Shown here: piece after piece, positions 1,436-16,809 of the stretch
Numbering within the stretch: position 1 is the first letter of the stretch
Layout of the letters: every line of letters starts with the position of its first letter
Source of the DNA: JAUWCW01 sp030609125 [NCBI: Candidatus Rokuibacteriota bacterium]
Lineage (GTDB): Bacteria; JAUVQV01
Assembly (NCBI GenBank): GCA_030609125.1
Contig: JAUWCW010000003.1
Coordinates: 1-22,730 of the forward strand
Reading direction: 5' to 3'
DNA: 22,730 bases
The notes under the pieces: model-generated
What the model was told of the DNA's origin: nothing
What the model saw: the letters and a program-made list of their open reading frames with translations, nothing else
The model's database searches: none
Program-made: the position numbers and the translations under genes

Positions 1436-1450
1436 ACGGCGGGCCACGTC

Positions 1451-2821: not shown

Positions 2822-2868
2822 AGCGAGAACGGGAAAAACAGGGACTTTTCCACGGTTTCCATAGGTTA

Positions 2869-2884
2869 TCCCCTGATCAGGGGA
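2869..2884. repeat. Perfect 16-bp palindrome downstream of the GT2 gene
   Basis: tcccctgatcagggga reads identically on both strands. It lies 48 nt after the GT2 stop and is not followed by a T-run, so it is not a standard intrinsic terminator. It may be a protein site or part of the repeat segment that follows. Confidence 0.4.
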
Positions 2885-2897
2885 GGATGGATGATGG

Positions 2898-2961
2898 GCC
2901 GAAGTGCTCAGGGCAAGCCCTTCGGCGGAGTTTATGCTGAGCAAAGCCGAAGTGCTCAGGG
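2898..2961. repeat. Short direct and inverted repeats (intergenic repeat element)
   Basis: gccgaagtgctcaggg occurs twice, at 2898-2913 and 2946-2961. Between them, cttcggc (2920-2926) is the inverse of gccgaag (2946-2952), and ctgagc (2937-2942) is the inverse of gctcag (2954-2959), so the segment can fold. It sits in a 223-bp gene-free gap and resembles a fragment of a dispersed intergenic repeat. Confidence 0.55.
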
Positions 2962-2974
2962 GAACCTTTTTCTT

Positions 2975-3001
2975 TTGAAAGAGGGTCGCATCTGGTAAGA
3001 T
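2975..3001 (+). promoter_or_regulatory. Weak candidate promoter for the Yip1-aspS-DUF2079 genes
   Basis: TTGAAA (2975-2980) and TAAGAT (2996-3001) are separated by only 15 nt, shorter than ideal. They are the best sigma70-like pair before the zinc-ribbon/Yip1 gene. Downstream is a tandem ctgtttcag repeat (3005-3022) and then the Shine-Dalgarno aaggagg (3026-3032). Confidence 0.3.
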
Positions 3002-3044
3002 CCGTCTGTTTCAGCTGTTTCAGCCAAGGAGGTCTGTGTTCTTC

Positions 3045-3824
3045 ATGCTGTGTCCCAGGTGCTACCACGACGTTCCCGGAGGAAGCGGTGTCTGCCCCCT
3101 CTGCGGGACCCCCATTCGCGGCGCCGCGGCCGGCGACGACGAAGCGGTGGCGGGACCCTCCGCCCCTGCGGCGAGTGTCCGTGACGCCGGCTCCTGTCCG
3201 TGGGAAGACCGGGAGCGGCTCGGGACTTTTTCGGCCCTGGCCGAGACGATCCAGGGGTCCCTCTTCCGGCCGACGGATTTCTTCCGGCAGATGCCCCGGG
3301 AGGGGAGCAAGTGGCGGGCCCTGTTCTTCGCCGTGATCGTCGGCACCATGGCGTGGATCGTGGCGATGCTCTGGAAGAGCGCCTTCGGCACGCCGGCCAT
3401 GGTGGAGCACGCGGGGCGGCTTCCCGCCATGACGGGCGTCGTCCTGTACTTCACGCTGGTGTTCATCCCGGTTCTCGTCGTGCTCTCGACGATCTTCCAG
3501 AGCGCCGTCCTTCACGTCTCACTGACGTTTCTCAACGGGGCGCGGGAAAACTACGAGGCCACCCTGAAGGCCGTCTCCTACGCCACCTCGGCGAGCCTCT
3601 TTCTGGTCCTTCCCTTCGTCGGCACGCCCCTGGCGGTCGTCTGGAGGGTGGTGCTGCTGGTGATCGGCCTGCGCGAGGTTCACCGGATTTCGACGGGGCG
3701 GGCCTTCTTCGCGTGGCTGCTCCCGTTCGTGATGCTCATCACGCTCGTCGTCCTGTCCTTTGTCTTCGCCTCGGTGGTGCTGCTGAAGCTGTGGCCCGGG
3801 CTGGCAGACACGATCGCGGTGTGA
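3045..3824 (+). CDS. Zinc-ribbon and Yip1-like multi-pass membrane protein
   Basis: The protein is 259 residues from the ATG at 3045. A GTG at 3036 is also open, but it lies only 3 nt from the strong Shine-Dalgarno aaggagg (3026-3032), whereas the ATG is 12 nt away; the start is therefore a judgement. The N-terminus carries four cysteines (C3, C6, C17, C20) in a CPxC...CPLC zinc-ribbon pattern. A charged linker follows, then about five hydrophobic segments from residue 90 to the end, with the spacing and short amphipathic lead-in (QGSLFRPTDFFRQMP) typical of Yip1-domain proteins. Bacterial members have no established function. It is 41 nt upstream of aspS in the same direction; I see no functional link to translation. 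Confidence 0.75.
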   Translation: MLCPRCYHDVPGGSGVCPLCGTPIRGAAAGDDEAVAGPSAPAASVRDAGSCPWEDRERLGTFSALAETIQGSLFRPTDFFRQMPREGSKWRALFFAVIVGTMAWIVAMLWKSAFGTPAMVEHAGRLPAMTGVVLYFTLVFIPVLVVLSTIFQSAVLHVSLTFLNGARENYEATLKAVSYATSASLFLVLPFVGTPLAVVWRVVLLVIGLREVHRISTGRAFFAWLLPFVMLITLVVLSFVFASVVLLKLWPGLADTIAV

Positions 3825-3851
3825 ATGCCGCAGCATACCAACTCTTTCAGC

Positions 3852-3858
3852 AAAGGAG
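3852..3858 (+). promoter_or_regulatory. Ribosome binding site that fixes the aspS start
   Basis: aaaggag lies 7 nt before the GTG at 3866. This favours that start over the internal ATG at 3887, where many homologues begin and which has no well-spaced site. Confidence 0.7.
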
Positions 3859-3865
3859 ATTTATC

Positions 3866-5674
3866 GTGACGGAACCGTGGGGAGAGATGATCCGGACCCA
3901 CTGCTGTGGTGAGCTGAGAAAAGAGGATGTGGGCAAGGATGTGCTCCTCGCCGGATGGATGCACAGCCGCCGCGACCATGGCGGTGTGATCTTCATCGAC
4001 CTGCGGGACCGCGAGGGCGTGACGCAGATCGTCTTCAACCCCGAGACCGACGCCGAACTGCACGCCAGGGCGGGAGAGGTGAGGGGAGAGTGGGTCCTGG
4101 CGGTGAGGGGCTCGGTGCGGGAGCGTCCCGAAGGGACGGTGAACCCCAACCTGCCGACGGGAGAGGTTGAAGTCGTCGCCCGGGAGCTGACGGTGCTCAA
4201 CACGAGCAGCACCCCGCCCTTTGTGATAGAGGACGGCATCAGCATCGACGAGTCACACCGCCTGCGCTACCGCTATCTCGACCTGCGCCGGCCGGAGATG
4301 ACGAAGAAGATGATCTTCCGCCACCGGGCGATGCAGCAGCTGCGGCGGGACCTCTCCGACAGGGGCTTTATCGAGGTCGAGACGCCGATGCTCACCAGGA
4401 GCACGCCGGAGGGGGCGAGGGACTACCTGGTGGCGAGCAGGGTCAACCCGGGGAGGTTCTACGCCCTGCCGCAGTCGCCGCAGCTTTTCAAGCAGCTCCT
4501 CATGGTGTCGGGGATGGACAGGTACTTCCAGATCGTGCGCTGCTTCCGTGACGAGGACCTGCGCGCCGACCGGCAGCCGGAGTTCACCCAACTCGACATG
4601 GAGATGTCCTTCGTCGGGCGGGACCAGATCTGCACGCTCGTGGAAGAGCTTCTGGCCTCCCTCTTCCGGGACCTGCTCGGAATGCAGATCACTCTCCCCG
4701 TCCCGCGTCTCACCTACGCCGAGGCGATGGCGCGCTACGGCGTCGACAACCCGGACGTCCGGTTCGCCATGGAGATCGTCGACCTGTCGGACATAGCCGC
4801 CGGGGTCGGATTCAAGGTCTTCGCCGGCGCCGTCTCCTCCGGGGGGACCGTACGGGCCCTGCGGGGCGAGCAGATGGCGGATAAGCTCTCCCGCAAGGAC
4901 ATCGACAACCTCACGGACCTGGTCAAGATCTACGGGGCCAAGGGGCTCGCCTGGGTGAAGGTGGGGGCCGACGGCGCCTGGGAGGCGAGCCCCATCGCCA
5001 AGTTCTTCTCCGACGAGGAGAGGATGAAGATCAACGAACGGTGCGGGGCCGCCGGGGGCGACATGCTCTTTTTTCTCGCCGACACCGTGAAGGTGGTCTG
5101 CGAGGGCCTGGGGCGCCTGCGCCTCGACCTTGCCCGGCGCTTCAGCCTCATCCCCGCGGGCCGGATGGACATGGTCTGGATCACCGACTTTCCCCTCCTG
5201 GAGCACAACGAGGAGGAAAAGCGCATGGAGGCGATGCACCACCCCTTCACCGCGCCGGTGCCGGAGGACGTCCCCCTGCTCGAGACGGATCCGCTCAAGG
5301 TCCGGGCCCAGGCGTACGACATCGTCCTGAACGGCCAGGAGATCGGCGGCGGGAGCATCCGTATCCACGATCGGGATCTGCAGCAGAAAATGTTCGCGGC
5401 CCTGAACATCAGTGCCGAGGAGGGTGAGTCCAAGTTCGGTTTTCTCCTCGAGGCGTTCCAGTACGGCGCGCCGCCTCACGGCGGGATAGCCCTCGGGCTC
5501 GACCGGCTCCTGGCCGTCATGACGGGCTCGACGTCGATCCGCGAGGTGATAGCGTTCCCCAAAACGCAGAAGGCGACGTGCCTCCTCACCGGCGCCCCGG
5601 CCCCGGTGGACCTCAGGCAGTTGAGGGAGCTTCACCTCAAGACCGACGTTCCCCTCGAAAAGGGAACACCGTAG
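3866..5674 (+). CDS. aspS: Aspartyl-tRNA synthetase, probably non-discriminating (Asp/Asn)
   Basis: This is a full bacterial-type AspRS of 602 residues that charges tRNA-Asp with aspartate in the cytoplasm. It shows the N-terminal OB-fold anticodon-binding domain (about 8-115), class II motif 1 near 160-180, motif 2 at FRDEDLRADRQPEF (from about 226), the bacterial GAD insertion (about 305-435) and motif 3 at GIALGLDRLL (from about 538). The GTG start is set by the aaaggag at 3852; counting from the internal Met8 gives the family's usual numbering. In that numbering the residues that separate discriminating from non-discriminating enzymes are His31 (RRDHGG) and Gly83 (RPEG), as in Pseudomonas aeruginosa AspRS, which also charges tRNA-Asn. 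That predicts an indirect Asn-tRNA route through GatCAB, not seen here. The next gene begins 31 nt after the stop. Confidence 0.97.
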   Translation: MTEPWGEMIRTHCCGELRKEDVGKDVLLAGWMHSRRDHGGVIFIDLRDREGVTQIVFNPETDAELHARAGEVRGEWVLAVRGSVRERPEGTVNPNLPTGEVEVVARELTVLNTSSTPPFVIEDGISIDESHRLRYRYLDLRRPEMTKKMIFRHRAMQQLRRDLSDRGFIEVETPMLTRSTPEGARDYLVASRVNPGRFYALPQSPQLFKQLLMVSGMDRYFQIVRCFRDEDLRADRQPEFTQLDMEMSFVGRDQICTLVEELLASLFRDLLGMQITLPVPRLTYAEAMARYGVDNPDVRFAMEIVDLSDIAAGVGFKVFAGAVSSGGTVRALRGEQMADKLSRKDIDNLTDLVKIYGAKGLAWVKVGADGAWEASPIAKFFSDEERMKINERCGAAGGDMLFFLADTVKVVCEGLGRLRLDLARRFSLIPAGRMDMVWITDFPLLEHNEEEKRMEAMHHPFTAPVPEDVPLLETDPLKVRAQAYDIVLNGQEIGGGSIRIHDRDLQQKMFAALNISAEEGESKFGFLLEAFQYGAPPHGGIALGLDRLLAVMTGSTSIREVIAFPKTQKATCLLTGAPAPVDLRQLRELHLKTDVPLEKGTP

Positions 5675-5705
5675 TTTAAGGGGCGGACCGCTTCCCCCAT
5701 TCCTT

Positions 5706-7307
5706 ATGGCACAGGACGCCGGCACGAAGAGGCCTCTTTCCTTCTACGTCGGTTTGCTCATCCTTGCGGACGGTCTTTTCATCGCCCTTCTCGTCCTCCT
5801 GGGAGAGATAGACCTTCAGGCCGGGCCGTTCCGGTTCCATGCGGGCGACCTGAGAGGGCCGGCCCTCGTGCTCCCGGCCCTTTTCGCCCTGCAGTGGATG
5901 CTGAAGGGGAGGAAAAAGGAGAGCGGGAGGTGGCAGGACTCCTTCTTCGGTCCCGCCGGTTCTCCCACGGAACGCTGGCGGGCCGTGGAGGTGCTCGCCC
6001 TGCTGTCGACGGGCTACGTTCTCTTCGTCGGCGGCGCGGCCATCGCGCAGTGCCGGGGCGGGGGACCGGAGACCCTCTCTCTCGCAATGGCGGCGCAGGC
6101 GGCCTGGAACACCATCAACGGCGCCTTTCTCTCGTCTTCCCTCGCCGGTGACGGCGGGTATCTCGGCACCCGCTTTTCTCCCGTCATGGCCCTTGTCGCC
6201 CAGGGGTACCGCTTCTGGGAGACCCCCGAGTTTCTCGTCCGGGTGCAGAGCATCGCTCTCGCCCTCGGCGCGTGGCCGGTCTACCTCATCGCCAGACGGG
6301 ATCTCGAGTGCCGCCGGTGGGCCGTCGCCATGGCGGCCCTCTACATCGCTCTCCCGGCCGTGAGGGGGATGAATCTCTCCGGCTTTCACCCGCTGACGCT
6401 GGCGGTGACGCCCCTGCTTTTCGCCTTTCACCTGCTGCGGGACAGACCGGGCTGGGCGGGCTACTTCTGTGTCGCTTTCGCTCTCGCCTGCGGCGAAGGG
6501 GCCTGGCTGGCCGTCGCTCTGCTGGGGCTCTACATCTGCCTGCCCCGGCGGCGCTGGAGGGAGGGGCTCTTTCTTTTTCTCGTCGCCTTCTACGGCTACG
6601 TCTTCATCGGCTCGTTCGTCATTCCGCGGCTCGGGGGAGAGGAAGGAATCGCCGCGAAGGAGGCCTTCGTCGCGCTTGCGGAGGGGGGCTACGGGGCGGC
6701 GGCCCTCGCGGCCGATCCCGCGGTGGGCGGCGCCCTGAGGGACCTCTTCGTCCCGCTGGCGTGCGTGCCTCTTTTCGGCCCGCTCATCCTCGCCTTCGGC
6801 CTCCCCGTCCTCGTCACGGCTCTCTTCGGCGGGGCGGAGAGCCTGATTCAGACGGCGGTCTTCCTCCCCTTTCTTTTCACCGCCGCCGCCGCCGGGCTGA
6901 GGCGGCTCAAAGAGGGGAAGGTCCTGGGGCGCCTGAAGCTTCTCGACGGGCCGCTTCTGCGGTGGGCGCTGGTCGTCCTGCCCCTGCTCTGCTTCGGGGT
7001 CTCGCCGGCGGTTCACTTCAGGGACCGCGCGCCGGAAGGGTACCGGGAGAGCCTGGCCGCGGCGGTCTCCCGGATCCCCCCCGACGCCTCGCTCTCGACA
7101 CAGGCAGGCCTGGCCGCCCGCCTGGCGCACCGCCGGGAGCTCTTCGTCTTCCCGAGGACGGAGGGAGCCGATCTCATTCTCCTCGATCTCACCGGCGCGG
7201 ATCCCCTGACGCCCGTCCCCGGCCGGGAGGAGGGCTACGAAGTCGCCTTCCAGGACGAGCACTTTCTCCTGCTGTCGCGCCTGGCCCCTCTTCTAAAACC
7301 GCGTTGA
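5706..7307 (+). CDS. DUF2079-like integral membrane protein (GT-C-like)
   Basis: The 533-residue protein has roughly ten hydrophobic segments and a soluble C-terminal domain (about 440-533). It matches the DUF2079 pattern: QAAWNTINGAFLSSS (about 131-145), then LGTRFSPVMALVAQGYR, then VYLIARRDL, and SGFHPLTLAVTPLLFAFHL (about 223-241). DUF2079 proteins look like GT-C glycosyltransferases that use lipid-linked sugars, but activity is not established. At the position where members I know read HFSP, this one reads TRFSP, so a commonly conserved histidine appears replaced. No good Shine-Dalgarno lies before the ATG; aagggg is 22 nt away, so the start is uncertain. It follows aspS by 31 nt and ends just before a strong terminator, suggesting it is last in that operon. 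Confidence 0.72.
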   Translation: MAQDAGTKRPLSFYVGLLILADGLFIALLVLLGEIDLQAGPFRFHAGDLRGPALVLPALFALQWMLKGRKKESGRWQDSFFGPAGSPTERWRAVEVLALLSTGYVLFVGGAAIAQCRGGGPETLSLAMAAQAAWNTINGAFLSSSLAGDGGYLGTRFSPVMALVAQGYRFWETPEFLVRVQSIALALGAWPVYLIARRDLECRRWAVAMAALYIALPAVRGMNLSGFHPLTLAVTPLLFAFHLLRDRPGWAGYFCVAFALACGEGAWLAVALLGLYICLPRRRWREGLFLFLVAFYGYVFIGSFVIPRLGGEEGIAAKEAFVALAEGGYGAAALAADPAVGGALRDLFVPLACVPLFGPLILAFGLPVLVTALFGGAESLIQTAVFLPFLFTAAAAGLRRLKEGKVLGRLKLLDGPLLRWALVVLPLLCFGVSPAVHFRDRAPEGYRESLAAAVSRIPPDASLSTQAGLAARLAHRRELFVFPRTEGADLILLDLTGADPLTPVPGREEGYEVAFQDEHFLLLSRLAPLLKPR

Positions 7308-7333
7308 TCCTGCTAATCTACAACATTCGTATG

Positions 7334-7367
7334 GCGCCGGTTGCATCAGCCGGCGCTCTGTTTTTTT
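7334..7367 (+). terminator. Rho-independent terminator
   Basis: A 10-bp stem (gcgccggttg / cagccggcgc, one G-U pair) with a 3-nt loop is followed, after tctg, by seven T (7361-7367). It lies 26 nt past the DUF2079 stop and separates that operon from the radical SAM cluster. Confidence 0.92.
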
Positions 7368-7369
7368 GG

Positions 7370-7543
7370 CCCGGATATTTCATGAACTTCGTTGCGAGAG
7401 CGTGGAGATTGCGTAAGATCAAGGGCTTTGTGCAGTTGAGCGGGTGAAGCTGTGCTGAAGCACAGCAAGATCGTGAGACAAGAAAAGACCTTGAGATTGC
7501 GTGATGTCCACGTTCGCAGCAGATGGCTCATGAAATTTCCGGG
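7370..7543. repeat. 174-bp imperfect palindromic element (MITE-like or structured RNA)
   Basis: The ends are inverted copies: cccggatatttcatga (7370-7385) and tcatgaaatttccggg (7528-7543), 15 of 16 matching. Further in, gcgtgga (7400s) and tccacgt (7507-7513) and the catcaagg/ccttgaga pair are also roughly complementary. The exact middle holds a perfect 8-bp hairpin, gctgtgct-ga-agcacagc (7449-7466). The motif gagattgcgt also occurs as a direct repeat in both arms (7405-7414 and 7493-7502). The element is visibly less GC-rich than its surroundings and has no convincing ORF. It fits precisely between the terminator and the Shine-Dalgarno of the next gene. Terminal repeats suggest a miniature inverted-repeat element; a folded leader RNA is the alternative. 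No clear target duplication is seen. Confidence 0.7.
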
Positions 7544-7557
7544 TTAAGGACAGGAGC

Positions 7558-8520
7558 ATGAGCACTTCGAGAATCGGGCAGAAGCTGGCCCTGGCAGGGC
7601 GGCTGGTCAAACACACCCTCCGGGGGCAGAAGCTGCGGCACCTGACGGTGGAAGTCACCAAGCGGTGCAACGCGAAGTGCTACTTCTGCGACTACTGGAA
7701 GGAGCCTCCCCAGGATGAGCTGGCCGACTACGGCCCCATCGTCCGGCACTTCAACCCCCTGGTGGTCACCCTCTCCGGAGGGGAGCCCCTGCTGCGGGAC
7801 GATCTCGGGGAGGTGGTGGCCGGCATCAGAAGGGCCGACCCCCACGTCTACCTGGGCATGGTGACCAACGCCGCCCTGCTCGACGTGGAGCGGGCCCGGG
7901 AACTTCATCGGGCGGGGCTGAACCAGCTCTCCATCTCCCTCGACTACAACGACGAAAAGCACGGCCGTGTCCGGGCCCTGCCGGGGCTCTACGGCCGCAT
8001 CACGGGTCTTCTTCCCGAGCTCCGAAAGGTGGGGTTTCACTCGGTGGGCTTCAACACCGTCATCAAGGACGACAACCTCGACTCGATCCCCGGCATCCTC
8101 GACCTTGCCGTCAGCCACGGCGTCCAGGTCGGCTTCAGCTCCTACTGCGAGCTCAAGACCGGCAACTCCAACCCCATGGTGTCCGAGGAGAACGGCTTGA
8201 AGCTGGCGGAGGTCATCTCTCTCATCAAGGAGTACAAGAGGGAGCACGCCGTCACGCGCACCTCCGACTACTACCTGGACCGGGTGGAGGAGTACTTCTC
8301 CGACAGCGAGATACCGGGCTGCCGGGCGGGACGGAGCTGGGTCCATGTCACCCCCGCGGGGGAGATCAAGCCCTGCTCCGAGCTGCCCGTGGTGGCCGGG
8401 GACTTCCGCGGCTACGCGCCGTCCGAGGCGAAGCCCGTCTCCTGCACCGCCTGCTGGTACAGCTGCCGGGGAGAGTCGCAGGCTCCGGTGACCCTGGGCA
8501 GGGTGCGGGAGCTGCTGTAG
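7558..8520 (+). CDS. Radical SAM protein with SPASM/twitch-like C-terminus
   Basis: The 320-residue protein has the radical SAM cluster motif C37-NAK-C41-YF-C44, the SAM-contacting GGEP (74-77) and an (alpha/beta) core pattern to about residue 200. The C-terminal part carries five more cysteines (C255, C273, C296, C299, C303), the last three as CTACWYSC, which would fit an auxiliary iron-sulfur cluster of a SPASM or twitch domain. No B12-binding domain is present. The reaction cannot be named. The size and layout loosely recall the hopanoid enzyme HpnH and peptide-modifying enzymes, but nothing ties it to hopanoids here. The Shine-Dalgarno aggacaggag is well placed. It opens the cluster of lipid/glycan-type genes, and the next gene starts 9 nt after its stop. 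Confidence 0.9.
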   Translation: MSTSRIGQKLALAGRLVKHTLRGQKLRHLTVEVTKRCNAKCYFCDYWKEPPQDELADYGPIVRHFNPLVVTLSGGEPLLRDDLGEVVAGIRRADPHVYLGMVTNAALLDVERARELHRAGLNQLSISLDYNDEKHGRVRALPGLYGRITGLLPELRKVGFHSVGFNTVIKDDNLDSIPGILDLAVSHGVQVGFSSYCELKTGNSNPMVSEENGLKLAEVISLIKEYKREHAVTRTSDYYLDRVEEYFSDSEIPGCRAGRSWVHVTPAGEIKPCSELPVVAGDFRGYAPSEAKPVSCTACWYSCRGESQAPVTLGRVRELL

Positions 8521-8529
8521 GTCGAGGCG

Positions 8530-10641
8530 ATGGCAGGGACCGCCGTCATACAGAGGAGGAAGGCGGGCGGGGAAGGGGAGGTCCCGGCCTTCCCGGACAT
8601 CCTCCTGGGCCTGACGCTCCTGGAGCGGGCCGTTCTCTCCCTCAGGCAAAAAGGCGTGGAGCGCATCGTCGTCGTCGGCGACAGGGACTCCCTCACCGCC
8701 GAGGCGACGGACCTGAGGCCCCGCGTGGTCGGAAAGCTCCCGGAGTTCATAGACGCCGCCGACGCGGAGAAGCTTCGGGCCGTCTTCGACGGGGACGGCG
8801 GGGATGTCATGCGGGTGAGGGAGGAGGTCGTCTGCGACGTCACCGTCACCTCGCCGGAGAGCTACCGGGAAGCGGAGCGGCGGCTCCTCGAGTCGGTCCG
8901 CAAGGAGACCGACGGCTTTATCGCCCGCACCCTGAACAGGCCCGTGTCCCTCCGCCTCTCGAAGATCTTCATCCGCCTCGGCCTGACGCCGAACCAGATC
9001 AGCGTCGGCAACCTCGCGGTCGGGCTCGTCGGCGCCTGGTTCGCCGCCGCCGGGGGATACTTCAACATCGCCCTCGGGGCGCTGCTCTTTCAGCTCTCCT
9101 CCATCGTCGACGGCAGCGACGGGGAGGTGGCGAAGCTGACCTACACCGGCTCCGAGCGCGGCTCGTGGATCGATACCCTCTGCGACGAGCTGACGTGCCT
9201 CGCCTTTTTCGTCGCCCTCCCCGTCGGCCTCTACCGGACGACGGGGGACGGGGTCTACGTCGCCCTCGTCGCCGGGACCCTGCTCTCCGGCGGCGTCCTC
9301 TACGCCCTCATGATCCGCTACGTGAGCGGCACCAAGGACCACGGGAGCATGGTCCAGATCCTCGACGACTTCCGGGAGAGCGCCCGCCTCCCGGGCCTCT
9401 TCGGCATGGTGAACCGGTTTGTCTCGTCCCTCTCCTTCGTGGTGCGGAGGGATTTTTTCGCCTTTCTCATCATGGTCCTCTGCCTTATCGGCCAGGCCCG
9501 CCTCGTGGTCTGGATCATCGGCGTCCTGGCGCCCCTCTCGGTGGTGTACTTCGCGTACTACTCGCGGAGGAAGACGAGAGGGCCTGCCGCCGCGGCGGAG
9601 ACTGAAGAGGCGGGCGGGAGCGCCGGACAGGGAAGGGCCATGGGCGGGAACGGAAAGGGCCGCTGGGACGAGCTGAAGTACAGGGCGCGCCGCCAGGTGA
9701 GCAAGGTGGTGATGCCGAACTCCCCCTCCGCCGCCTCAGTCCCGTTCGTGGAGTACCTCAAGTGGTTTCGCTTCAGCCGCTTCACCCCCGACTACCCCCT
9801 CTCCCTCGACATCCAGACCAGGAGCGGCTGCAACGCCCGCTGCGCCTTCTGCGGCGTCAACCGGGAGAAGAACCGCATCCCCGGCGCCATGAGCGACGAG
9901 CTCTTCCGCAAGATCGTCGACGAGGCCCTCACCTGGCCGAACCTGCGCCAGATCAACCCGTACCTTCTCAACGACCCCCTGGTGGACCGGCGCCTGGAGG
10001 AGCGGCTCGACTACATCATCGCCGGAAGGGGAGATCGCCGCCGCCCACTGGTGCGGATCATCACCAACGCCGGCCTCATGCGCGACGGCAGGGCCCGGCG
10101 CCTTCTCGAGACCGGGATCGACGAGATCAACATCAGCTTCAACTCCATCGTCCCCGAGGTTTACGAGCGGGCCATGCGCCCCTTGAAGTACGACCGCGTG
10201 ATGGCCAACATTCACGAGCTCATCCGGCAGCGCGACCGTCTGGGCGTGAAAAAGCCGAAGATCAGCATCTGGACCGTCCTGACCAGGGAAGTGGAGGACA
10301 ACCTCGCCGACGAGAAGGCCTACTGGAAGAAGCTCGGCGTCGGTTTCAAGGCCCGCAAGCTCGACAACCGCGCCCGCTCCGACGTGGAGGAGGCGCAGCT
10401 CGGCAGGCGCCCCATGGACCTTGTCCGGATCTGCCCCATTCCCTTCTGGCGCGCCTGGGTCATGTGGAACGGCGACATGATCCTCTGCTGCGTCGACCAG
10501 GAGCGCAGCACGGTCCTCGGCAACTGCACCGACCGGTCGATACGCGAGATATGGAACAATCCGGCGTACCGGCAGCTGCGCGAAAAGTGGCGGACGGGGC
10601 GCCTCGAAGGACTCCTCTGCGAGCACTGCAAGGGCTCCTGA
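8530..10641 (+). CDS. Fusion: degenerate nucleotidyltransferase, CDP-alcohol phosphotransferase, radical SAM
   Basis: One uninterrupted 703-codon frame. Residues 1-125 align by eye with the front (TAVIQRRKAGGEGE, then LLERAVLSLRQKGVERIVVVG) and the end (VTVTSPESYREAERRL) of a sugar-nucleotidyltransferase, but the GxGxR/PKP loop is lost and the middle is missing. Residues 126-345 are a CDP-alcohol phosphotransferase: DGFIARTLNRPVS and TPNQISV lead into D194-x2-D197-G-x2-A-K202-x8-G211-x3-D215-x3-D219, complete except Lys for the usual Arg, then several helices. The order resembles bifunctional IPCT/DIPPS of di-myo-inositol phosphate synthesis. After a Gly/Ala-rich linker (350-375) comes a radical SAM domain with C434-NAR-C438-AF-C441 and a SPASM-like tail (C635, C653, C654, C666, C697, C700). 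The active site is cytosol-facing at the inner membrane in this family. A recent gene fusion or a lost stop are both possible. Confidence 0.88.
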   Translation: MAGTAVIQRRKAGGEGEVPAFPDILLGLTLLERAVLSLRQKGVERIVVVGDRDSLTAEATDLRPRVVGKLPEFIDAADAEKLRAVFDGDGGDVMRVREEVVCDVTVTSPESYREAERRLLESVRKETDGFIARTLNRPVSLRLSKIFIRLGLTPNQISVGNLAVGLVGAWFAAAGGYFNIALGALLFQLSSIVDGSDGEVAKLTYTGSERGSWIDTLCDELTCLAFFVALPVGLYRTTGDGVYVALVAGTLLSGGVLYALMIRYVSGTKDHGSMVQILDDFRESARLPGLFGMVNRFVSSLSFVVRRDFFAFLIMVLCLIGQARLVVWIIGVLAPLSVVYFAYYSRRKTRGPAAAAETEEAGGSAGQGRAMGGNGKGRWDELKYRARRQVSKVVMPNSPSAASVPFVEYLKWFRFSRFTPDYPLSLDIQTRSGCNARCAFCGVNREKNRIPGAMSDELFRKIVDEALTWPNLRQINPYLLNDPLVDRRLEERLDYIIAGRGDRRRPLVRIITNAGLMRDGRARRLLETGIDEINISFNSIVPEVYERAMRPLKYDRVMANIHELIRQRDRLGVKKPKISIWTVLTREVEDNLADEKAYWKKLGVGFKARKLDNRARSDVEEAQLGRRPMDLVRICPIPFWRAWVMWNGDMILCCVDQERSTVLGNCTDRSIREIWNNPAYRQLREKWRTGRLEGLLCEHCKGS

Positions 10642-10644
10642 TCC

Positions 10645-12141
10645 ATGCCGGCCCGGTCTGTCCGCAGCTCAGGCGTAGCCGCCAAGGCGGGGGTCATCGT
10701 CTTCAGCAAGGCCTTCGCCCACCTCTCGAGAATTCTCGCCATCGTCGTCCTGGCCCGCATACTCGCCAAGGCCGACTTCGGGGCGCTCAGCTTCGTCCTC
10801 CTCACCTACATCGCCGTATCGGGCCTCGCCCAGATCGGGCTCCCCGAGAGCGTCTACTTCTTCTTTGAAAAGCTCCCTCGCGGCTCGCGGGGGCGTTTCG
10901 TCCTGCTCGTGGCGCGGCTGCTCTTTCTCCTCGGCCTGGGCTCCTCGGTTGTCCTCATCGGCATAGCCCTCGTCGCCGACCGCCGGGGGCACGACGTGCT
11001 GCACCTTTTCGTTCCCCTCACGCTCCTGCCGCTGCTGGAGCTTCCCACCTTTCCCGTGACCCACGTGCTCATCGCCACCGACCGGGCGCGCGAGGCGGCG
11101 TGGCTGAACATCATGTTCAGCAGCGCCCTGGTGGCGGGGCTGGCGGCGCCGGTCCTGCTGGGACAGCCCCTCGTGACGGTCTCCTGGGGCCTCGTCGCCT
11201 ACGGGGCGTTTCGCCTCGCCGTCTGCACCGCCGTCTTCCTGCGGCACTTCGGCCGCGCCATGGAGGCGCTTCCGGCGGGCACGATGAGGAGCGTTTTCGA
11301 CTATTCCCTTCCCCTCGGCTTCGCCCAGTTCGTCTGGAAGCTCAACCAGGTGGTGGACAAGTACGTGGTCATGTACTTCCTTCCCATGGCGGCCTTCGCC
11401 GAGTACAGCGTCGGCTCCTGGGAGATCCCCCTGGTGCCCATGGTCGCCAACGCCGTGGCGGCGGTGATGATGCCCCAGTTCGTCTCGGCCTACCTCGACG
11501 GGCGCCGAAAGGATCTTCTCTCGGCCTGGACCGAAGCCATCGAGAAGGTCTCCGTCATCGTTCTGCCCCTGGTGGTCCTCTTCCTCGTCATCGCCAGGGA
11601 CCTCATTGTCCTTCTCTTCACGGAGAAGTACCTCAACGCGGTGCTCCCTTTCCAGATCTACACCCTCATCCTCCTGCAGCGGGTGACCGCCTACGACGCG
11701 GTCCTCAAGGCCATCGACCGGACCCGGGTCGTCACGCTCTGGGCGCTCTTCACCATCGCCGTCAACCTCGTGCTGTGCGTCCCCCTCGTCCTCTGGATCG
11801 GCATGGCGGGGGCCGCCCTCTCCACCCTCATCGCCAACGCCGTCACCTGGGTGTACGTCCTCGTCAAGATCGGCCACGGGCTGGATGTGAAACTGAAAGA
11901 GGTGTTCCCGTACCGGTTCTACGGCCGCGTCCTGGCCGCCGCGCTTCTGGCCGCCGCCGCCCCCGTCTTCCTCGGCGTCGTGACGGACTTTTCCGCCGGC
12001 GCGGCGCTGGCGTGGAAGACGGTGGTCTACGCCGCCGCCTTCGCCTTCGTCTCCGCAAGGATGGGTGTGTGCGGGCGGGAAGAGTGGGACTTCGTCCTCG
12101 GCGCCGTCAGGCTGAGGAGAAAGCGGCCCGGCGATGAATAG
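10645..12141 (+). CDS. Polysaccharide/lipid-linked-glycan flippase (MOP superfamily, Wzx-like)
   Basis: The 498-residue protein has about 12-14 hydrophobic helices and the opening pattern of the polysaccharide transporter branch of the MOP superfamily: AKAGVIVFSKAFAHLSRIL followed by VVLARILAKADFGALSFV and GLPESVYFF. The middle contains DYSLPLGFAQFVWKLNQVVDKYVVMYFL (shown in part), also typical. Such proteins flip lipid-linked glycans or glycolipids from the cytoplasmic to the periplasmic leaflet. It starts 3 nt after the fusion gene, with aaggg 10 nt before the ATG, and overlaps the glycosyltransferase start by 8 nt, so it belongs to the same transcript. Its presence argues that the pathway product is membrane-anchored and exported, rather than a soluble solute. 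The substrate cannot be predicted from sequence. Confidence 0.9.
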   Translation: MPARSVRSSGVAAKAGVIVFSKAFAHLSRILAIVVLARILAKADFGALSFVLLTYIAVSGLAQIGLPESVYFFFEKLPRGSRGRFVLLVARLLFLLGLGSSVVLIGIALVADRRGHDVLHLFVPLTLLPLLELPTFPVTHVLIATDRAREAAWLNIMFSSALVAGLAAPVLLGQPLVTVSWGLVAYGAFRLAVCTAVFLRHFGRAMEALPAGTMRSVFDYSLPLGFAQFVWKLNQVVDKYVVMYFLPMAAFAEYSVGSWEIPLVPMVANAVAAVMMPQFVSAYLDGRRKDLLSAWTEAIEKVSVIVLPLVVLFLVIARDLIVLLFTEKYLNAVLPFQIYTLILLQRVTAYDAVLKAIDRTRVVTLWALFTIAVNLVLCVPLVLWIGMAGAALSTLIANAVTWVYVLVKIGHGLDVKLKEVFPYRFYGRVLAAALLAAAAPVFLGVVTDFSAGAALAWKTVVYAAAFAFVSARMGVCGREEWDFVLGAVRLRRKRPGDE

Positions 12142-13294
12142 AGCGGGCAGGGTGAGGCTCCTCATCGGGACGGAGTACCTCAACGAGGGCGGGGTGGGCC
12201 GGCAGATCCACTACCTTGTAAACCACCTCGACCCGGAGCGCTTCGAGCTGCACCTGGCGGTCCTGCGGGGCCGGGACCTGTTCTTCACCGACCTCTTCGA
12301 GAGCGACAGGGTCGAGGCCCGCCTCCTGAACCGGGGAAGGGGGGTCGGGCCGCGCAGCTGGGTGGAGATGGCCGGGCTCTTCCGCTCCCTCGAGCCCGAC
12401 ATCGTCCACCTCTTCGGCGGCAAGGCGAACCACATCGGCGGGCTCGCCAGCCTCTTCGCCCGGCTTCCGGTCCTCATCTTCTCCGTCAGGAGCGCCACGG
12501 GCAGCCGGGTGAACGACGTGGTGTACCGCCTGCTGCGATCGAGGCAGAGCCTCACCATCGTCAACTCCGAGGGGACGCGCCGGGAGCTGGTGGAGCGCTC
12601 CGGCTACCGTCCGGAAGAGGTGGAAGTCCAGCACAACTTCCTCGACACCGGCCTCTTCCGCCCCCTGGAGGAAAAGGATAGGGAGGCGGCCCGCCGCCGC
12701 TTCGGCATCGGCGAGGGCAGGCGCTGCTTTGCCTCCATCGGGAGGATTGCGCCCCAGAAGAACCAGCTGGCCGCCCTGGAGGCGCTGCGCCGCCTCAAGG
12801 ACGGCGGCCGGCTCGCGGAGGACGTGGACTTTCTCTTCGTCGGCAGGGAGTACGATGCGGGCTACGCGCGCAGGGTCCGGGAGCGGTGCGGCGCCCTCGG
12901 GCTCGACGGCCTCTGCCGCTTTCACGATCCCGTCCGGGACGTCGTCCCCCTCTACAACGCGCTGGACGGGATCTTTCAGCCCTCCACCTACGAGGGCCTC
13001 TCGAACGTCGTCATCGAGGCCCAGGCCTGCGGCACGCCGGTGGCCCTCTCCACTGAAGGCGACAACGACGGGCTCGTCGAGGGGGGGAAGACGGGCATCT
13101 CCTTTTCGGCGGCCGACACGGGGGACGCCGCCCGCGCCCTGGGGGAGCTGATCGCGCTGGGAAAAGACCGGGAGAGAAGAGAAGAGGTCACGCGCCGCGC
13201 CCGCGCGGGGGTGGTGCGGAGGTTCTCCCTGGAGGGGCAGATCGCGAAGCTCCAGGAAACCTACGAGCGGCTCCTTCGGGAACGCCGCGCGTGA
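12134..13294 (+). CDS. GT4-family glycosyltransferase (GT-B fold)
   Basis: The 386-residue protein begins with a Rossmann half containing the acceptor-side glycine loop (NEGGVGRQIHYL, 17-28) and PDIVHLFGG (88-96). The donor-binding half shows IGRIAPQKNQ (202-211) and the E-x7-E motif E287-GLSNVVI-E295, followed by ACGTPVALS. This is the GT4 pattern: retaining transfer of a sugar from a nucleotide sugar to an acceptor, usually on the cytoplasmic side of the membrane. Relatives build capsule, lipopolysaccharide or glycolipid headgroups. Donor and acceptor are unknown. The ATG at 12134 lies inside the end of the flippase gene (8-nt overlap), indicating translational coupling. Given the cluster, the likely acceptor is the phospho-polyol lipid made by the neighbouring enzymes (inference). 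Confidence 0.92.
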   Translation: MNRAGRVRLLIGTEYLNEGGVGRQIHYLVNHLDPERFELHLAVLRGRDLFFTDLFESDRVEARLLNRGRGVGPRSWVEMAGLFRSLEPDIVHLFGGKANHIGGLASLFARLPVLIFSVRSATGSRVNDVVYRLLRSRQSLTIVNSEGTRRELVERSGYRPEEVEVQHNFLDTGLFRPLEEKDREAARRRFGIGEGRRCFASIGRIAPQKNQLAALEALRRLKDGGRLAEDVDFLFVGREYDAGYARRVRERCGALGLDGLCRFHDPVRDVVPLYNALDGIFQPSTYEGLSNVVIEAQACGTPVALSTEGDNDGLVEGGKTGISFSAADTGDAARALGELIALGKDRERREEVTRRARAGVVRRFSLEGQIAKLQETYERLLRERRA

Positions 13295-13309
13295 GCGCCC
13301 CGGCCGCTG

Positions 13310-13318
13310 TGCTATAGT
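13310..13318 (+). promoter_or_regulatory. Candidate extended -10 promoter inside the cluster
   Basis: TGCTATAGT has the extended -10 form TG-n-TATAGT (hexamer 13313-13318). It stands in the 75-nt gap between the GT4 gene and the second CDP-alcohol phosphotransferase. No good -35 is visible, as is common for extended -10 sites. Confidence 0.4.
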
Positions 13319-13369
13319 GTTGCCCTTTTGCCGCCGGCCCGAATAGAGACCAGGAGCAAAGGAGCGCGC

Positions 13370-14362
13370 GTGGGCACATTCATCGAAGACTACCGCAGGA
13401 TGGCGAAGCCGAGGGCCATCGAGGAGGTGGGGGACACCTACCTCATCCGGCCCCTGGGCTATCTCTTCGTTCAGCTCTTCCGCCACACCCCCGTGACGCC
13501 GACGATGGTCTCCTTTCTCTCCGTCGCGGCCGCCTGGTGGACGGCGTGGCTCTACTACCGCTCCAACAGCGTCGGGGGCGACGCCGTTGCTGCCGTCGCC
13601 GCGGCCTTTCTCTTTCTCCTGCACTCCGCCCTGGACAGCGCCGACGGACAGCTGGCGCGGGTGACGGGGCGCACCTCCGAGATGGGCCGGCTTATCGACG
13701 GCTTCTGCGACAGCCTCTCTTTTCTCGGGATCTACGTCGCCATCGTCCTCAGCTGCTGGAAGAGGATCGGCGACCACCAGCTTCTCATCGCCGCCCTCGC
13801 CGCCGCGGCGGTCTGGACGCACTCCCTGCAGAGCTCCCTCACCGAGTTTCAGCGAACCCTCTACATCTACGCCGTTCACGGCAAGCGGGACATCGTCGAT
13901 TCCAACCCGCTCCGGGTGGAGCAGGCGGCGGCGAGGGAGGGGACCTTTTTCGCCCGCCTCCTTCACACCCTGCACATCCAGTACTACCGCCAGCAGAGAG
14001 CGGTCCTCGCCACCACGGCGAGGCTGGAGAGTTTCGTCATCGACTGGATCGGGAAGAACCCGGGAAGAGAAAAAGAACTGGCCCGGATCTATGAGCGCAG
14101 CCAGCGCCCGTCTCTGAAGGGATGGTCCCTGCTGGCTCCCAACTCACACAAGATCGGCATCATCCTGTCCGCGTTTCTGCCGGTCTGGACCGGCTCCTTC
14201 TGGGGGCTGCTCGGTATGGGCTGGTACCTCATCTACGATCTCTCTCTCAATCTCGCCATGCTGTGGCTTGTCCGGCGCCAGGCGGGGACCAACAGGCGCA
14301 CCATCGAAGAGATCGGCCTGCTGGCAGAGGGGTCAGTGCCTGACCCCGGTTCCTCGGGATGA
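13370..14362 (+). CDS. CDP-alcohol phosphatidyltransferase family membrane enzyme
   Basis: The GTG at 13370 has aaaggag 5 nt upstream and gives 330 residues; an in-frame TTG at 13328 lacks such a site. The full family motif is present: D89-x2-D92-G93-x2-A96-R97-x8-G106-x3-D110-x3-D114, within several membrane helices and preceded by TPVTPTMVSFLS. The enzymes move a phospho-alcohol between CMP and another alcohol, with the active site at the cytosolic face of the inner membrane. It is longer than housekeeping PgsA or PssA (about 180-250), with a charged insert (about 165-250) before the last helices, so a special role is likely. The last 12 residues (EGSVPDPGSSG) are encoded by a palindromic repeat, so the natural C-terminus may have been replaced. 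Substrates unknown; an inositol-like polyol is suggested by neighbours. Confidence 0.9.
   Translation: MGTFIEDYRRMAKPRAIEEVGDTYLIRPLGYLFVQLFRHTPVTPTMVSFLSVAAAWWTAWLYYRSNSVGGDAVAAVAAAFLFLLHSALDSADGQLARVTGRTSEMGRLIDGFCDSLSFLGIYVAIVLSCWKRIGDHQLLIAALAAAAVWTHSLQSSLTEFQRTLYIYAVHGKRDIVDSNPLRVEQAAAREGTFFARLLHTLHIQYYRQQRAVLATTARLESFVIDWIGKNPGREKELARIYERSQRPSLKGWSLLAPNSHKIGIILSAFLPVWTGSFWGLLGMGWYLIYDLSLNLAMLWLVRRQAGTNRRTIEEIGLLAEGSVPDPGSSG
14329..14347. repeat. REP-like palindrome within a gene end
   Basis: ggggtca-gtgcc-tgacccc is a perfect 7-bp stem with a 5-nt loop. It lies in the last codons of the CDP-alcohol phosphotransferase gene and is followed by ctcgggatgacag (14353-14365), shared with 1466-1478. 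A related gtcaggcac stands at 16451-16459, next to the kinase remnant. It resembles short dispersed extragenic palindromes. Confidence 0.55.
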
Positions 14363-14387
14363 CAGGGCGATGGCGCTTGTGTAGTAT
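14359..14387 (+). promoter_or_regulatory. Candidate promoter giving a leaderless mRNA for the third radical SAM gene
   Basis: ATGACA (14359-14364, 5 of 6 to the -35 consensus) and TAGTAT (14382-14387) are 17 nt apart. The expected transcription start falls at about 14394-14397, the ATG itself. No Shine-Dalgarno precedes that ATG. The -35 lies inside the repeat that also supplies the upstream gene's stop codon. Confidence 0.5.
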
Positions 14388-14396
14388 CATCACCCC

Positions 14397-15656
14397 ATGT
14401 CAAAGACCATTTCCCATAACGACTGCTACCGGCTCCCCTGGAGCTTGACGGACAACATCATCTCCTGGCTGGAGCCGACGACGAAGTGCAACCTGCGCTG
14501 CGAGGGGTGCTACCGCAAGGACACGGCGAGCCACAAGAGCCTGGACGAGGTGCGCGCCGACCTGGAGGTCTTCCGCCGGCTGCGCAAGAGCGACTGCATC
14601 AGCATCGCCGGCGGAGAGCCGCTGGTGCACCCCGAGATCGTCGAGATCGTCCGCATGGTCAGGGAGATGGGGTGGAAGCCCATCGTCAACAGCAACGGCG
14701 TGGCCCTCGACGAGCCCCTGCTGAAGGAGCTGAAGAAGGCCGGCGTCTACGGCTTCACCTTCCACATCGACACCAGCCAGAAGCGGCCCCGCGTGAAGGC
14801 GACGACCGAGACGGAGCTCAACGAGGTCCGCCTCCACTACGCCCGGATGCTCGCCGACGCGGGCGGCATCGCCTGCTCGTTCAACGCGACGATCACCGAC
14901 AAGACCCTGAGCGAGGTTCCCGCCATGGTGAAGTGGGCGGGCAGGCACGCCGATATCGTTCAAACCATGGTCTTTATCCTCTTCCGCTCCCCCGTCCTCA
15001 CCGGGGAGTTTGAATTCTTCGCCGGCGGCAGGGAGGTCAGCTTCGGCGACACCTACAAGGATTCCGACTGGGGCGGGGCGTCGAAGCTGCACGCCCCGGA
15101 CGTGGTGGAGGCGATCCGCTCCGCCGACCCCCTCTACGAGCCGGCGGCGTACCTGAACGGCACGGCCAACCCCGAATCGTTCAAGTGGCTCGTGGCCAAC
15201 CGCATCGTGCAGGGCGGGGAAACGGTGGGGTACGTCTCCCCCCGCTTCATGGAGATCGCCCAGACACTCAACCACATGCTGCACGGACGGTACCTCTCCT
15301 ACACCTCGCCGAAGGTCTGCCGGCGCGGCAAGAGCGTCTCCTTCCTCACGGGCCTCTTCGACGGAAGGATGCGGCGCATTTTTCTGCGCCTTCTGGGAAG
15401 GATGCTGACAAACCCCGCCAACCTCCTGCGCCCCGCCCACATCCAGACCTTCATGATCATCCAGCCCGTCAACATCGAGGAAGACGGGCGGCAGGACATG
15501 TGCGACGCCTGCCCGGACGTGACCGTCCACGACGGCAAGCTGGTCTGGAGCTGCCGCCTGGAGGAGCTGAACGAGTTCGGGACCATGGTCAGCGCCGTCC
15601 CCAACGCGAAGGCGTCCGCGGCGCCGGTTCCGGAGAAAACCGGCGTCAGCCGGTAG
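14397..15656 (+). CDS. Radical SAM protein with extra C-terminal cysteine group
   Basis: The 419-residue protein carries C31-NLR-C35-EG-C38 in [15 protein letters not shown], then GGEP (72-75) and NSNG (98-101), all radical SAM core motifs. The core ends near residue 200. A longer C-terminal region follows, with C308 and a distinct group C369-DA-C372 and C386 (MCDACPD...WSCRLEE) that may hold an auxiliary cluster. No B12 domain is present. A basic hydrophobic stretch ([15 protein letters not shown], 323-337) could lie on a membrane surface. I do not recognise a characterised enzyme. Lipid-acting radical SAM families (such as tetraether synthase Tes) are worth comparing, but the match is only general. 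It has no Shine-Dalgarno and probably its own promoter, and it lies 13 nt before the nucleotidyltransferase gene. Confidence 0.88.
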
Positions 15657-15669
15657 GCCCCCTCTCTCC

Positions 15670-16443
15670 GTGAAAGAATCCGCGGAGCGTCCCCGCCAGA
15701 CGGTTATCCTCGCCGCCGGCTTCGGAGAGCGCCTCGGAAGCCCGGACCACGGAACGCCCAAGCCGCTGATGCGCGTCTTCGGGAGGCCCCTCATCGAGTA
15801 CGCCATCGCCCAGGCCGCCGCCGCCGGGTGTGAAGAGGCGATCGTCGTCGTCGGCAACAGCGGCAGCGCGGTGCGGACGCACCTCGAGGGGGGCGGCCTT
15901 CCGCTGGAAGTCACCGTGGCGGTCAACCCCGAGTACCACCTGCCCAACGGCGTCTCCCTCCTGGCGGCGGAGCCATTTGTGAACGGACCGTTCTTCCTCC
16001 AGATGTCGGACCACCTCTTCGGCGAGCCGGTTCTCGCCCGCCTGGCCCACCCGGGCGCGGCGCCGCGGGGCTGCCCGCGCCTTCTTGTCGACGCCGATCC
16101 GGTCTACACCGACGACGGGGACTCCACCAAGGTCCGCCTCGGCGAGGGGAGGATAACCTCCATCGGCAAGGAGCTCGCCCGCTGGGATGCCGTCGACACC
16201 GGCTGCTTTCTCCTCGACGAGAGGGTGTTCGACGCCCTCAGGGAGGTCAAGGAGCCGGAGCAGAGGAGCGTCACCGCCGGCATGCAGCGGCTCATCGGCG
16301 CGAAGATCCTGGCCGGGGTCGCCCTCGAGGGCGTCACGTGGGTCGACGTCGACACCCCCATGGACCGGGAAAAGGCCGAGGAGCTCTTCGGCCGGGGCGG
16401 CCCCTACGGCGCCTTCCCCCCAATTCCCCGTCTCACTCTCTGA
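15670..16443 (+). CDS. Nucleotidyltransferase resembling inositol-1-phosphate cytidylyltransferase
   Basis: The 257-residue soluble enzyme shows the sugar-nucleotidyltransferase signature [12 protein letters not shown] (12-23) and the lysine of TPKPL (29-33). Later features match the cytidylyltransferase half of archaeal IPCT/DIPPS as I know it: [15 protein letters not shown] (86-100), MSDH (112-115), DSTKVRL and [19 protein letters not shown] (165-183), and VDVDTP (225-230). The expected reaction is CTP plus inositol-1-phosphate (or a related polyol phosphate) giving the CDP-polyol. That activated group is just what CDP-alcohol phosphotransferases use, and two are encoded upstream. The fused one retains only a broken copy of this same domain, so this enzyme probably supplies the activity in trans. 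The GTG start has no clear ribosome binding site and lies 13 nt after the radical SAM gene. The inositol specificity is inference. Confidence 0.85.
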
Positions 16444-16470
16444 TCCCGCTGTCAGGCACCCCTGTTTCAT

Positions 16471-16809
16471 TGTGTTCGGAACAAGATTGTGCAGGTCCTG
16501 GAGAATCTGCTCGGCAACGCGATCAAGTTTTCACCCGACGGCGGGAAGATTGCGGTCGGCGGCAGCGCGGAAGGGCGTTACTACCGGATCACCGTAACCG
16601 ACGAGGGGATCGGGATGACCCCGGAGCAGATCGGGAAGGTTTTTGACAAGTTTTACCGGGCGGACAATTCGAGTGCCGCCAGGGACGGCATGGGGCTCGG
16701 CATGAGTATCGTGAAGCATATTGTCGACAGTCACGGCGGCGGCATCAGGGTGGAGAGCGAACCGGGAAAAGGCACCGCCGTCTCTTTCACCGTGCCCCTT
16801 GCCGGCTAG
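16471..16809 (+). pseudogene. Histidine-kinase ATPase-domain fragment
   Basis: The open frame encodes the C-terminal catalytic domain of a sensor histidine kinase: N-box VLENLLGNAIKFS, G1 box DEGIGM, F-box VFDKFYRAD and G2 box GMGLGMSIVKHIVDSHGG, ending naturally at 16809. The sensor, membrane and His-phosphorylation (DHp) parts are absent; the frame upstream of about 16475 runs into non-kinase sequence that contains the repeat-like gtcaggcac. The first usable start is a GTG at 16489, already inside the N-box helix. ATP-binding residues look intact, but a protein lacking the phospho-accepting histidine would not be a normal kinase. I read it as the 3' remnant of a deleted gene, with the break near 16470. 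A functional stand-alone ATPase domain is less likely. Confidence 0.75.

Follow-up and report, generated by a model that had tools for sequence, protein, structure and literature searches.

What might be made by a gene cluster that combines three radical S-adenosylmethionine (SAM) domains with two CDP-alcohol phosphotransferases? The question is raised by positions 7558-16443 of a 22,730-nucleotide stretch of contig JAUWCW010000003.1 (assembly GCA_030609125.1) from JAUWCW01 sp030609125, a Candidatus Rokuibacteriota bacterium; the whole stretch is referred to below as the window, and the seven genes of the cluster as G1 to G7. An earlier note, made from the letters alone, had described seven same-strand genes that together encode three radical SAM domains, a pair of complete CDP-alcohol phosphotransferase motifs, an IPCT-like nucleotidyltransferase, a GT4 enzyme and a flippase, and Pfam and NCBIfam searches together with motif inspection bear this description out. 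The enzyme set is unusual. We predict, with a probability of roughly 0.55, that the cluster makes an exported inositol phosphoglycolipid. This prediction draws on the gene content and motifs, on the statistical link of the G1 family to inositol-phosphate synthase and IPCT/DIPPS-type genes, on a synthase encoded in the host genome and on the predicted fold of G6.

Gene content of the cluster

The seven open reading frames (ORFs) all lie on the plus strand, with intergenic gaps of 9, 3, -8, 33, 34 and 13 bases. G1 (7558-8520, 320 residues) is a radical SAM protein, assigned by Pfam, alignment and neighbourhoods. G2 (8530-10641) is a fusion, a single ORF of 703 residues in which a weak nucleotidyltransferase remnant is joined to a DIPPS-like CDP-alcohol phosphotransferase and a radical SAM/SPASM part. 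It is followed by a flippase of the Polysacc_synt family (MOP/Wzx-type; G3, 10645-12141, 498 residues), a GT4 glycosyltransferase (G4, 12134-13294, 386 residues) and a second CDP-alcohol phosphotransferase (G5, 13328-14362, 344 residues). The last two genes encode a radical SAM protein with a predicted fold like that of Tes, the tetraether lipid synthase (G6, 14397-15656, 419 residues), and an IPCT-like cytidylyltransferase (G7, 15670-16443, 257 residues). G6 was assigned by NCBIfam and predicted structure, and G2 to G5 and G7 by Pfam and NCBIfam. The Pfam scan covered eight window proteins, the remaining flanking genes being identified by eye; high-GC genes (G4, G5 and G7 in the window, and locus L112) were read from ORF lists or all-frame matches.

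All three Radical_SAM matches exceed the Pfam cut-off of 29.5 bits (G1, 74.1; G2, 52.3; G6, 66.5), and CxxxCxxC is intact in each domain. Both CDP-OH_P_transf matches likewise exceed their cut-off of 22 bits (G2, 32.8; G5, 44.1), and the motif DxxDGxxA(R/K)x8-12GxxxDxxxD is intact at residue 194 of G2, with K for R, and at residue 103 of G5. Pfam also finds Polysacc_synt in G3 (39.6 bits, cut-off 28.2), NTP_transf_3 in G7 (49.8 bits, cut-off 27) and GT4 domains in G4.

G7 and G2 match the two halves of NF041135, the IPCT/DIPPS model of di-myo-inositol phosphate synthesis. G7 aligns with the IPCT half (profile positions 2-216; 136.2 bits, E 1.5e-39), G2 with the DIPPS half (profile positions 193-418; 101.4 bits, E 5.6e-29); each covers just half of the model, and both fall far short of its cut-off of 580 bits. 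Residues R21, K31 and D114 of G7 were read by eye as the counterparts of the catalytic residues R16, K26 and D112 given in the available part of PMC12275187. For G5 the best curated models are archaetidylinositol-phosphate synthase (43.3 bits) and phosphatidylinositol-phosphate synthase (34.1 bits), both below cut-off. Among 317 genomes, own included, 8 have a relative of G5 at E 1e-12, with more than 40% identity only in G001, the sole listed genome from the host's order. In another genome (G105, L182) a G5 relative (28-32% identical) adjoins a nucleotidyltransferase and lies about 6 kb from an inositol-phosphate-synthase-like gene, a context that fits the inositol reading.

The G1 family is associated with inositol phosphate synthesis

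We searched 386 genomes, own included, for relatives of G1 (E 1e-30 or better) and for IPCT/DIPPS matches (E 1e-25). G1 relatives occur in 26 genomes, from 19 of the sampled families, and IPCT/DIPPS matches in 56, with 14 genomes holding both. The earlier note had suggested a co-occurrence check, and for this core of the cluster the outcome is positive: 14 of the 26 G1 genomes have an IPCT/DIPPS match, compared with 42 of the 360 others (Fisher p 9.9e-7). Because the search at E 1e-25 passed over a diverged cassette in genome G270, the IPCT counts are lower bounds.

We looked for inositol-phosphate synthase in 80 genomes with PF01658. It was found in all 14 genomes with both G1 and IPCT, in 9 of the 12 with G1 only, in 24 of the 26 tested among the 42 that have IPCT without G1, and in 7 of the 28 with neither. 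Thus 23 of the 26 G1 genomes have the synthase, compared with 7 of 28 without G1 or IPCT (Fisher p 2.3e-6), and the association holds with one count per family (16 of 19 G1 families, p 7.5e-5). Of the 56 IPCT-positive genomes 40 were tested, and 38 of these likewise have the synthase. The p values should be taken as indicative, since many genomes are related to each other and the 28 controls are non-random, being low-numbered genomes lacking G1 and IPCT matches.

The host assembly (2.3 Mb, 376 contigs, rated 92% complete) encodes an inositol-3-phosphate synthase (PF01658, E 1.9e-34; TIGR03450, 451.6 bits, cut-off 638), and an inositol-monophosphatase-like gene lies about 1 kb downstream of it (225.6 bits, cut-off 332). 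A search with PF07994 gave no match and would have left the host without a synthase; this was a false negative, as PF01658, the sequence and TIGR03450 all show the enzyme. The discrepancy illustrates that single-family searches can mislead on absence. Because of the association of G1 with the synthase, the host synthase itself and the IPCT/DIPPS genes beside G1 described below, we propose with fair confidence that the polyol of the cluster product would be inositol.

An alignment of 23 G1 sequences (the window protein and 22 of the 26 relatives, with four near-duplicates omitted) showed that CX3CX2C, GGEP and four C-terminal cysteines (C255, C273, C296 and C299) are invariant, and the pattern of these cysteines is as in twitch/SPASM enzymes. 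The closest fold to the predicted model of G1 (pLDDT 93.5) is BlsE (Z 24.8). The next scores are 22.3 and less, with SkfB, SuiB, MoaA and viperin-like enzymes at Z about 20-22.

G1 neighbourhoods and conservation of the cluster

We then compared the window with 27 other G1 loci from 26 genomes. These represent 23 of the 25 other G1 genomes (G342 and G365 were left out), with two loci from G151; three further genomes were added by searching the order of G270, where four of six genomes have G1. At six loci (L050, L052, L122, L188, L189 and L190; families f134, f16, f214 and f261) no more than 60 bases separate G1 from a CDP-alcohol phosphotransferase or IPCT gene, and at two more (L125 and L128) such a gene lies about 8.4 kb away. 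The pairing of radical SAM and phosphotransferase genes is therefore not unique to the window, the outcome that the earlier note had left to a neighbourhood analysis: six further genomes, belonging to four families, have G1 next to genes of the IPCT/DIPPS type. L122 and L190 hold a compact cassette of G1, a CDP-alcohol phosphotransferase, a HAD gene, inositol-phosphate synthase and a nucleotidyltransferase fused to an LPG-synthase/flippase-like membrane domain.

Parts of the cluster recur in G001. One of its contigs carries G1 (63-64% identical) followed by a Polysacc_synt flippase (weakly G3-like, 25%) and a GT4 gene; on a second, which also bears an MMPL gene, a nucleotidyltransferase (36% identity to G7) comes after a G5 homologue (55%). 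G001 has no match to G6 and no G2-type fusion, and the full seven-gene set was seen solely in the host among the genomes searched. A reading of the whole set as one conserved pathway is thus not supported. G6 occurs in only 3 of 386 genomes (own included), no G1 relative was found beside it at the six other G6 loci examined (L037-L039 and L045-L047), the G001 parts are split over two contigs, and no other match spans both the phosphotransferase and radical SAM parts of G2 in 145 genomes (own included).

Stand-alone relatives of the G2 radical SAM part were found at L048, L049 and L053, where matches to the window proteins revealed no phosphotransferase or nucleotidyltransferase of the window type alongside. 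The best of these relatives (38%; G022:C10, of which L048 is bases 1-12000) has an inositol-phosphate synthase match about 16 kb away on the same contig.

G6 has a predicted Tes-like fold

The earlier note had mentioned Tes among enzymes of radical lipid chemistry, and the predicted structure of G6 is Tes-like. The AlphaFold model (mean pLDDT 85.4, built from 8 sequences) aligns residues 1 to 395 with Tes (7tol) over 310 residues, with Z 23.1 and a root-mean-square deviation of 3.8, compared with Z 15.8 for the next family. A profile search agrees, giving E 1e-22 to 7tol and 4.4e-10 for the next chain. C31, C35 and C38 (CX3CX2C) are invariant in 8/8 aligned sequences, as are C369, C372 and C386, with a methionine just before C369 in 7/8. 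In Tes itself, as described in the available part of PMC9433317, the C-terminal auxiliary cluster has a labile methionine ligand, and a rubredoxin domain (C9X2C12X20C33X2H36) and an auxiliary cluster held by three cysteines and one histidine are both N-terminal.

G6 has neither of these N-terminal domains. Only 30 residues precede its radical SAM motif; they contain one cysteine, which is absent from the relatives, and the ORF extends only 4 codons further upstream. Since it has a Tes-like fold with no N-terminal domains and a low score (66.6 bits with NF045702, cut-off 450), we do not file G6 as a Tes. Judging from the model, G6 is nevertheless probably a radical enzyme with a Tes fold that acts on lipids, and this fold argues for alkyl-chain chemistry.

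A pattern scan, limited to close relatives, found G6 relatives on three named contigs. The closest relative (67%) is on a contig of a Desulfococcus metagenome-assembled genome (L037), together with a fatty acyl-AMP ligase (NF006624, 767.5 bits, above the cut-off of 600), an epimerase-family gene, a GNAT, two nucleotidyltransferases, a sulfotransferase and a DAGK-type kinase. We take the GNAT, epimerase and ligase to be of types that act in ceramide synthesis, and by analogy the gene set resembles the Caulobacter ceramide loci. As far as the available portions of PMC11324152 and PMC12275187 go, the Caulobacter pathway includes a kinase and nucleotidyltransferases. The region L037:1-15171, with its G6 homologue, sulfotransferase and two nucleotidyltransferases, perhaps encodes an undescribed lipid pathway. 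Elsewhere G6 relatives lie with FabH-like and enoyl-reductase-like genes (L039), with an enoyl-CoA hydratase (L038) or with a sulfotransferase and a GT2 gene (L047). In genome G189 (L046:1142-3721) there is a tandem pair of G6-like radical SAM genes, 48% and 29% identical to G6 over the aligned part.

Ceramide genes in G1 and G6 genomes

The host encodes a serine-palmitoyltransferase-like (Spt-like) protein (NF047600, 583 bits, cut-off 640; best unrelated-function model, 408), and its gene lies directly before a relative of the L037 GNAT. This GNAT gene is present in two parts, each at a contig end (L174, G000:C370; L175, G000:C116), which seem to belong to one gene cut by the contig ends.

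We considered ceramide as a general partner of G1 and rejected it. Among the 26 G1 genomes, 4 have an Spt-like protein (NF047600 at least 440 bits, a cut set at a gap in the list) and 6 a GNAT related to that of L037; each of the two is found in 8 of the 28 controls. Within the G1 genomes a contrast that at first looked significant appeared between those with the phosphotransferase-type genes adjacent to G1 and those without. It amounted to 3/4 vs 1/22 for Spt and 4/4 vs 2/14 for GNAT on a strict count, and to 4/5 vs 0/21 and 5/5 vs 1/13 with G001 counted as adjacent despite its contig break. We dropped this contrast because it was post hoc and because three further genomes with G1 beside a phosphotransferase (G386-G388) gave no GNAT match, while G389 and G390, of the same order and without a G1 match, gave one. 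Among G6 carriers, G206 has both a GNAT and an Spt-like protein; G189 has no GNAT match and no Spt-like match above 440 bits. The link to ceramide would hold only for the host and some G6 carriers (L037 and G206).

A proposed pathway and its alternatives

We propose that the inositol-phosphate synthase encoded elsewhere in the genome would supply inositol phosphate, which G7 would convert to CDP-inositol. G2 (DIPPS-like) and/or G5 (PIP-synthase-like) would then put phosphoinositol on a lipid, or build it there. G1 may carry out a radical reaction on the inositol part (e.g. oxidation, epimerisation or addition), and G6, with its Tes fold, may abstract hydrogen from an alkyl tail, followed by coupling or another modification. 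G4 would attach a sugar, and G3 would move the product across the membrane. The substrates, reaction types and order given here, the lipid anchor, some part for the radical SAM domain of G2 and the service of all seven genes to a single pathway are what we infer from the gene set. The polyol-phosphate lipid of the earlier note is thereby supported, with inositol as the likely polyol through the synthase and IPCT/DIPPS association.

Several observations weigh against this proposal. No product or activity of the cluster is known, and the curated-model matches of all its genes fall below equivalog cut-offs. The host synthase is a single match on a separate contig (C312). The G2 fusion and G6 are as rare as described above in the genomes searched. 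The fold of G1 as modelled is of a common radical SAM kind that would fix neither substrate nor reaction, and on the genome counts a ceramide anchor is unsupported across G1 genomes. In addition, a phosphotransferase lies beside G1 or in its operon at only 7 of 28 loci (window included). A phosphodiesterase gene lies within 232 bases at 9 of the 27 other loci, in six families (L114, L115, L116, L117, L119, L125, L126, L128 and L132), and neither kind of gene is near G1 at 12 of the 27. Because of this distribution, the role of G1 may be wider than inositol cassettes.

Some of these points bear on the nature of the head group. With the same machinery G7 might make CDP-glycerate, CDP-glycerol or another CDP-alcohol, so that the head group would not be inositol. 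There is a precedent for this: Caulobacter CpgD, whose top structural match is IPCT, is a phosphoglycerate cytidylyltransferase for a ceramide lipid, according to the available part of PMC12275187. G7 also reaches only 136 bits where the Thermococcales IPCT/DIPPS model has a cut-off of 580, and 3 of the 26 G1 genomes gave no match in the PF01658 search. We nonetheless consider another polyol unlikely, given the synthase in 23 of 26 G1 genomes and 38 of 40 tested IPCT-positive genomes and its presence inside the cassette at L122 and L190. A soluble product, a di-inositol-phosphate-type compatible solute as in hyperthermophiles, appears very improbable. G7 and G2 do correspond to the split halves of IPCT/DIPPS, but the flippase, the glycosyltransferase and the Tes-fold enzyme would have no obvious use in making a solute, and in G2 the phosphotransferase forms one protein with a radical SAM domain.

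The flippase and glycosyltransferase could instead belong to a surface polysaccharide or teichoic-like polymer, in which phosphoinositol would be placed on a lipid-linked glycan built by G4 and flipped by the Wzx-type G3. The Polysacc_synt and GT4 families of these proteins suit such a polymer, as does the similar flippase-GT4 pair after G1 in G001. So does a short NusG/RfaH-like protein, recognised by eye upstream of the cluster (894-1400, minus strand), a type often found near polysaccharide loci and linked to long polysaccharide operons. Yet the eight scanned window proteins include no polymerase, ligase or initiating phosphoglycosyltransferase (the other flanks being judged by eye), the Tes-like fold of G6 points to alkyl-chain chemistry, and the L122/L190 cassette has an LPG-synthase-type membrane domain with no Wzx-type flippase seen there. 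On balance a polymer seems improbable. It is more doubtful still that genes of several separate pathways lie together here by chance. The complete set occurs only here among the genomes searched, and G001 keeps G1-flippase-GT4 and G5-G7 on two contigs with no G6 or G2 fusion. Against chance, the genes share one strand with gaps of at most 34 bases, the G1 plus flippase-GT4 and G5 plus nucleotidyltransferase groups recur in G001, and G1 beside CDP-alcohol phosphotransferase or IPCT genes recurs in four other families.

Relation to known systems

The exported inositol phosphoglycolipid that we favour can be compared with several described systems. The inositol lipid cluster of Bacteroides vulgatus comprises MIPS, an NTP transferase, a CDP-alcohol phosphatidyltransferase and a HAD protein, with an LPG-synthase homologue nearby; in the part of PMC9246714 available, its authors state that the functions of three alternative-cluster proteins are unconfirmed. 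Similarly, the window cluster has a nucleotidyltransferase and CDP-alcohol phosphotransferases for CDP-inositol chemistry, with MIPS in the host genome, and L122/L190 correspond to the proposed inositol lipid set plus G1. In contrast to B. vulgatus, the window adds three radical SAM domains, a GT4 enzyme and a Wzx-type flippase; there is no HAD among its eight scanned proteins and MIPS is on contig C312, whereas L122/L190 have both. Relative to IPCT/DIPPS, both halves are recognisable in G7 and G2, but they are split over two genes, the nucleotidyltransferase part of G2 is a weak remnant and its phosphotransferase is fused to radical SAM/SPASM.

With Tes/GDGT-MAS and the bacterial Tes homologues, as presented in the available parts of PMC9433317 and PMC8941075, G6 shares the CX3CX2C core, a cysteine-bearing C-terminal part and the fold; the missing N-terminal domains and the low score set it apart. 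A bacterial membrane-spanning lipid synthase, Mss, is described in PMC13274423, insofar as its text was available. In the Caulobacter ceramide phosphoglycerate pathway (PMC12275187 and PMC11324152, in part) an IPCT-like nucleotidyltransferase and a CDP-alcohol-type protein likewise add a phospho-alcohol head group, and our host too has an Spt-like gene and a GNAT relative. The difference is that glycerate takes the place of inositol, and the available portions of those papers mention no radical SAM gene.

For the radical step at the head group, BtrN is a radical SAM enzyme acting on a cyclitol; it ranks 37th by fold for G1 (Z 15.4), and no close relation between the two is shown. Together with calditol synthase, a radical SAM enzyme of calditol head-group formation (PMC8941075, in its available part), it provides a precedent for radical SAM chemistry on a polyol or cyclitol.

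If the proposal is correct, some inositol lipid pathways of bacteria would regularly involve radical chemistry. In the accessible part of PMC9246714 such pathways are described through transferases, phosphatases and hydrolases only. The term 'radical SAM' occurs 0 times in the text of that paper, and no paper among the open-access literature matches listed places a radical SAM gene in a pathway for inositol lipids or sphingolipids. The G1 family, found in 19 of the sampled families, would on this proposal serve as a marker gene for lipids whose head group has been altered by radical chemistry. The presence of a Tes-fold enzyme in this operon would suggest membrane-spanning or otherwise modified bacterial inositol lipids and would bear on the open question of bacterial membrane-spanning lipids. 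At its furthest, and only tentatively, the cluster may point to a novel class of membrane lipid in bacteria, in which an inositol phosphoglycolipid, perhaps ceramide-based, has alkyl tails joined or modified by G6 and a cyclitol head rewritten by the widespread, undescribed G1 family as a component of inositol lipid cassettes.

Other features of the locus and of G1 loci

The phosphodiesterase genes noted above form a second partnership of G1. The enzyme at L114 is a type I phosphodiesterase. At L115 (8149-8892) and L116 (8107-8868), which come from two genomes in a single family, G1 and the phosphodiesterase are followed by a class II aldolase (PF00596, a match documented for L115 only) and by a gene that by eye looks acyltransferase-like.

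Pfam identifies a DUF2079 gene upstream of G1. In the interval between the two, a consensus scan found a terminator-like hairpin with a T run on the plus strand (7333-7357), a possible 5' boundary of the cluster. As the scan returned 17 such sites in the region compared with a shuffle mean of 5.6, the hairpin lends weak support to this boundary. Further upstream AspS and other genes were recognised by eye. Immediately 3' of G7, also by eye, lies a plus-strand fragment of 106-121 residues (16444-16809) that resembles the C-terminal ATPase half of a histidine kinase, with no sensor part seen, and a TonB-type receptor is also encoded downstream.

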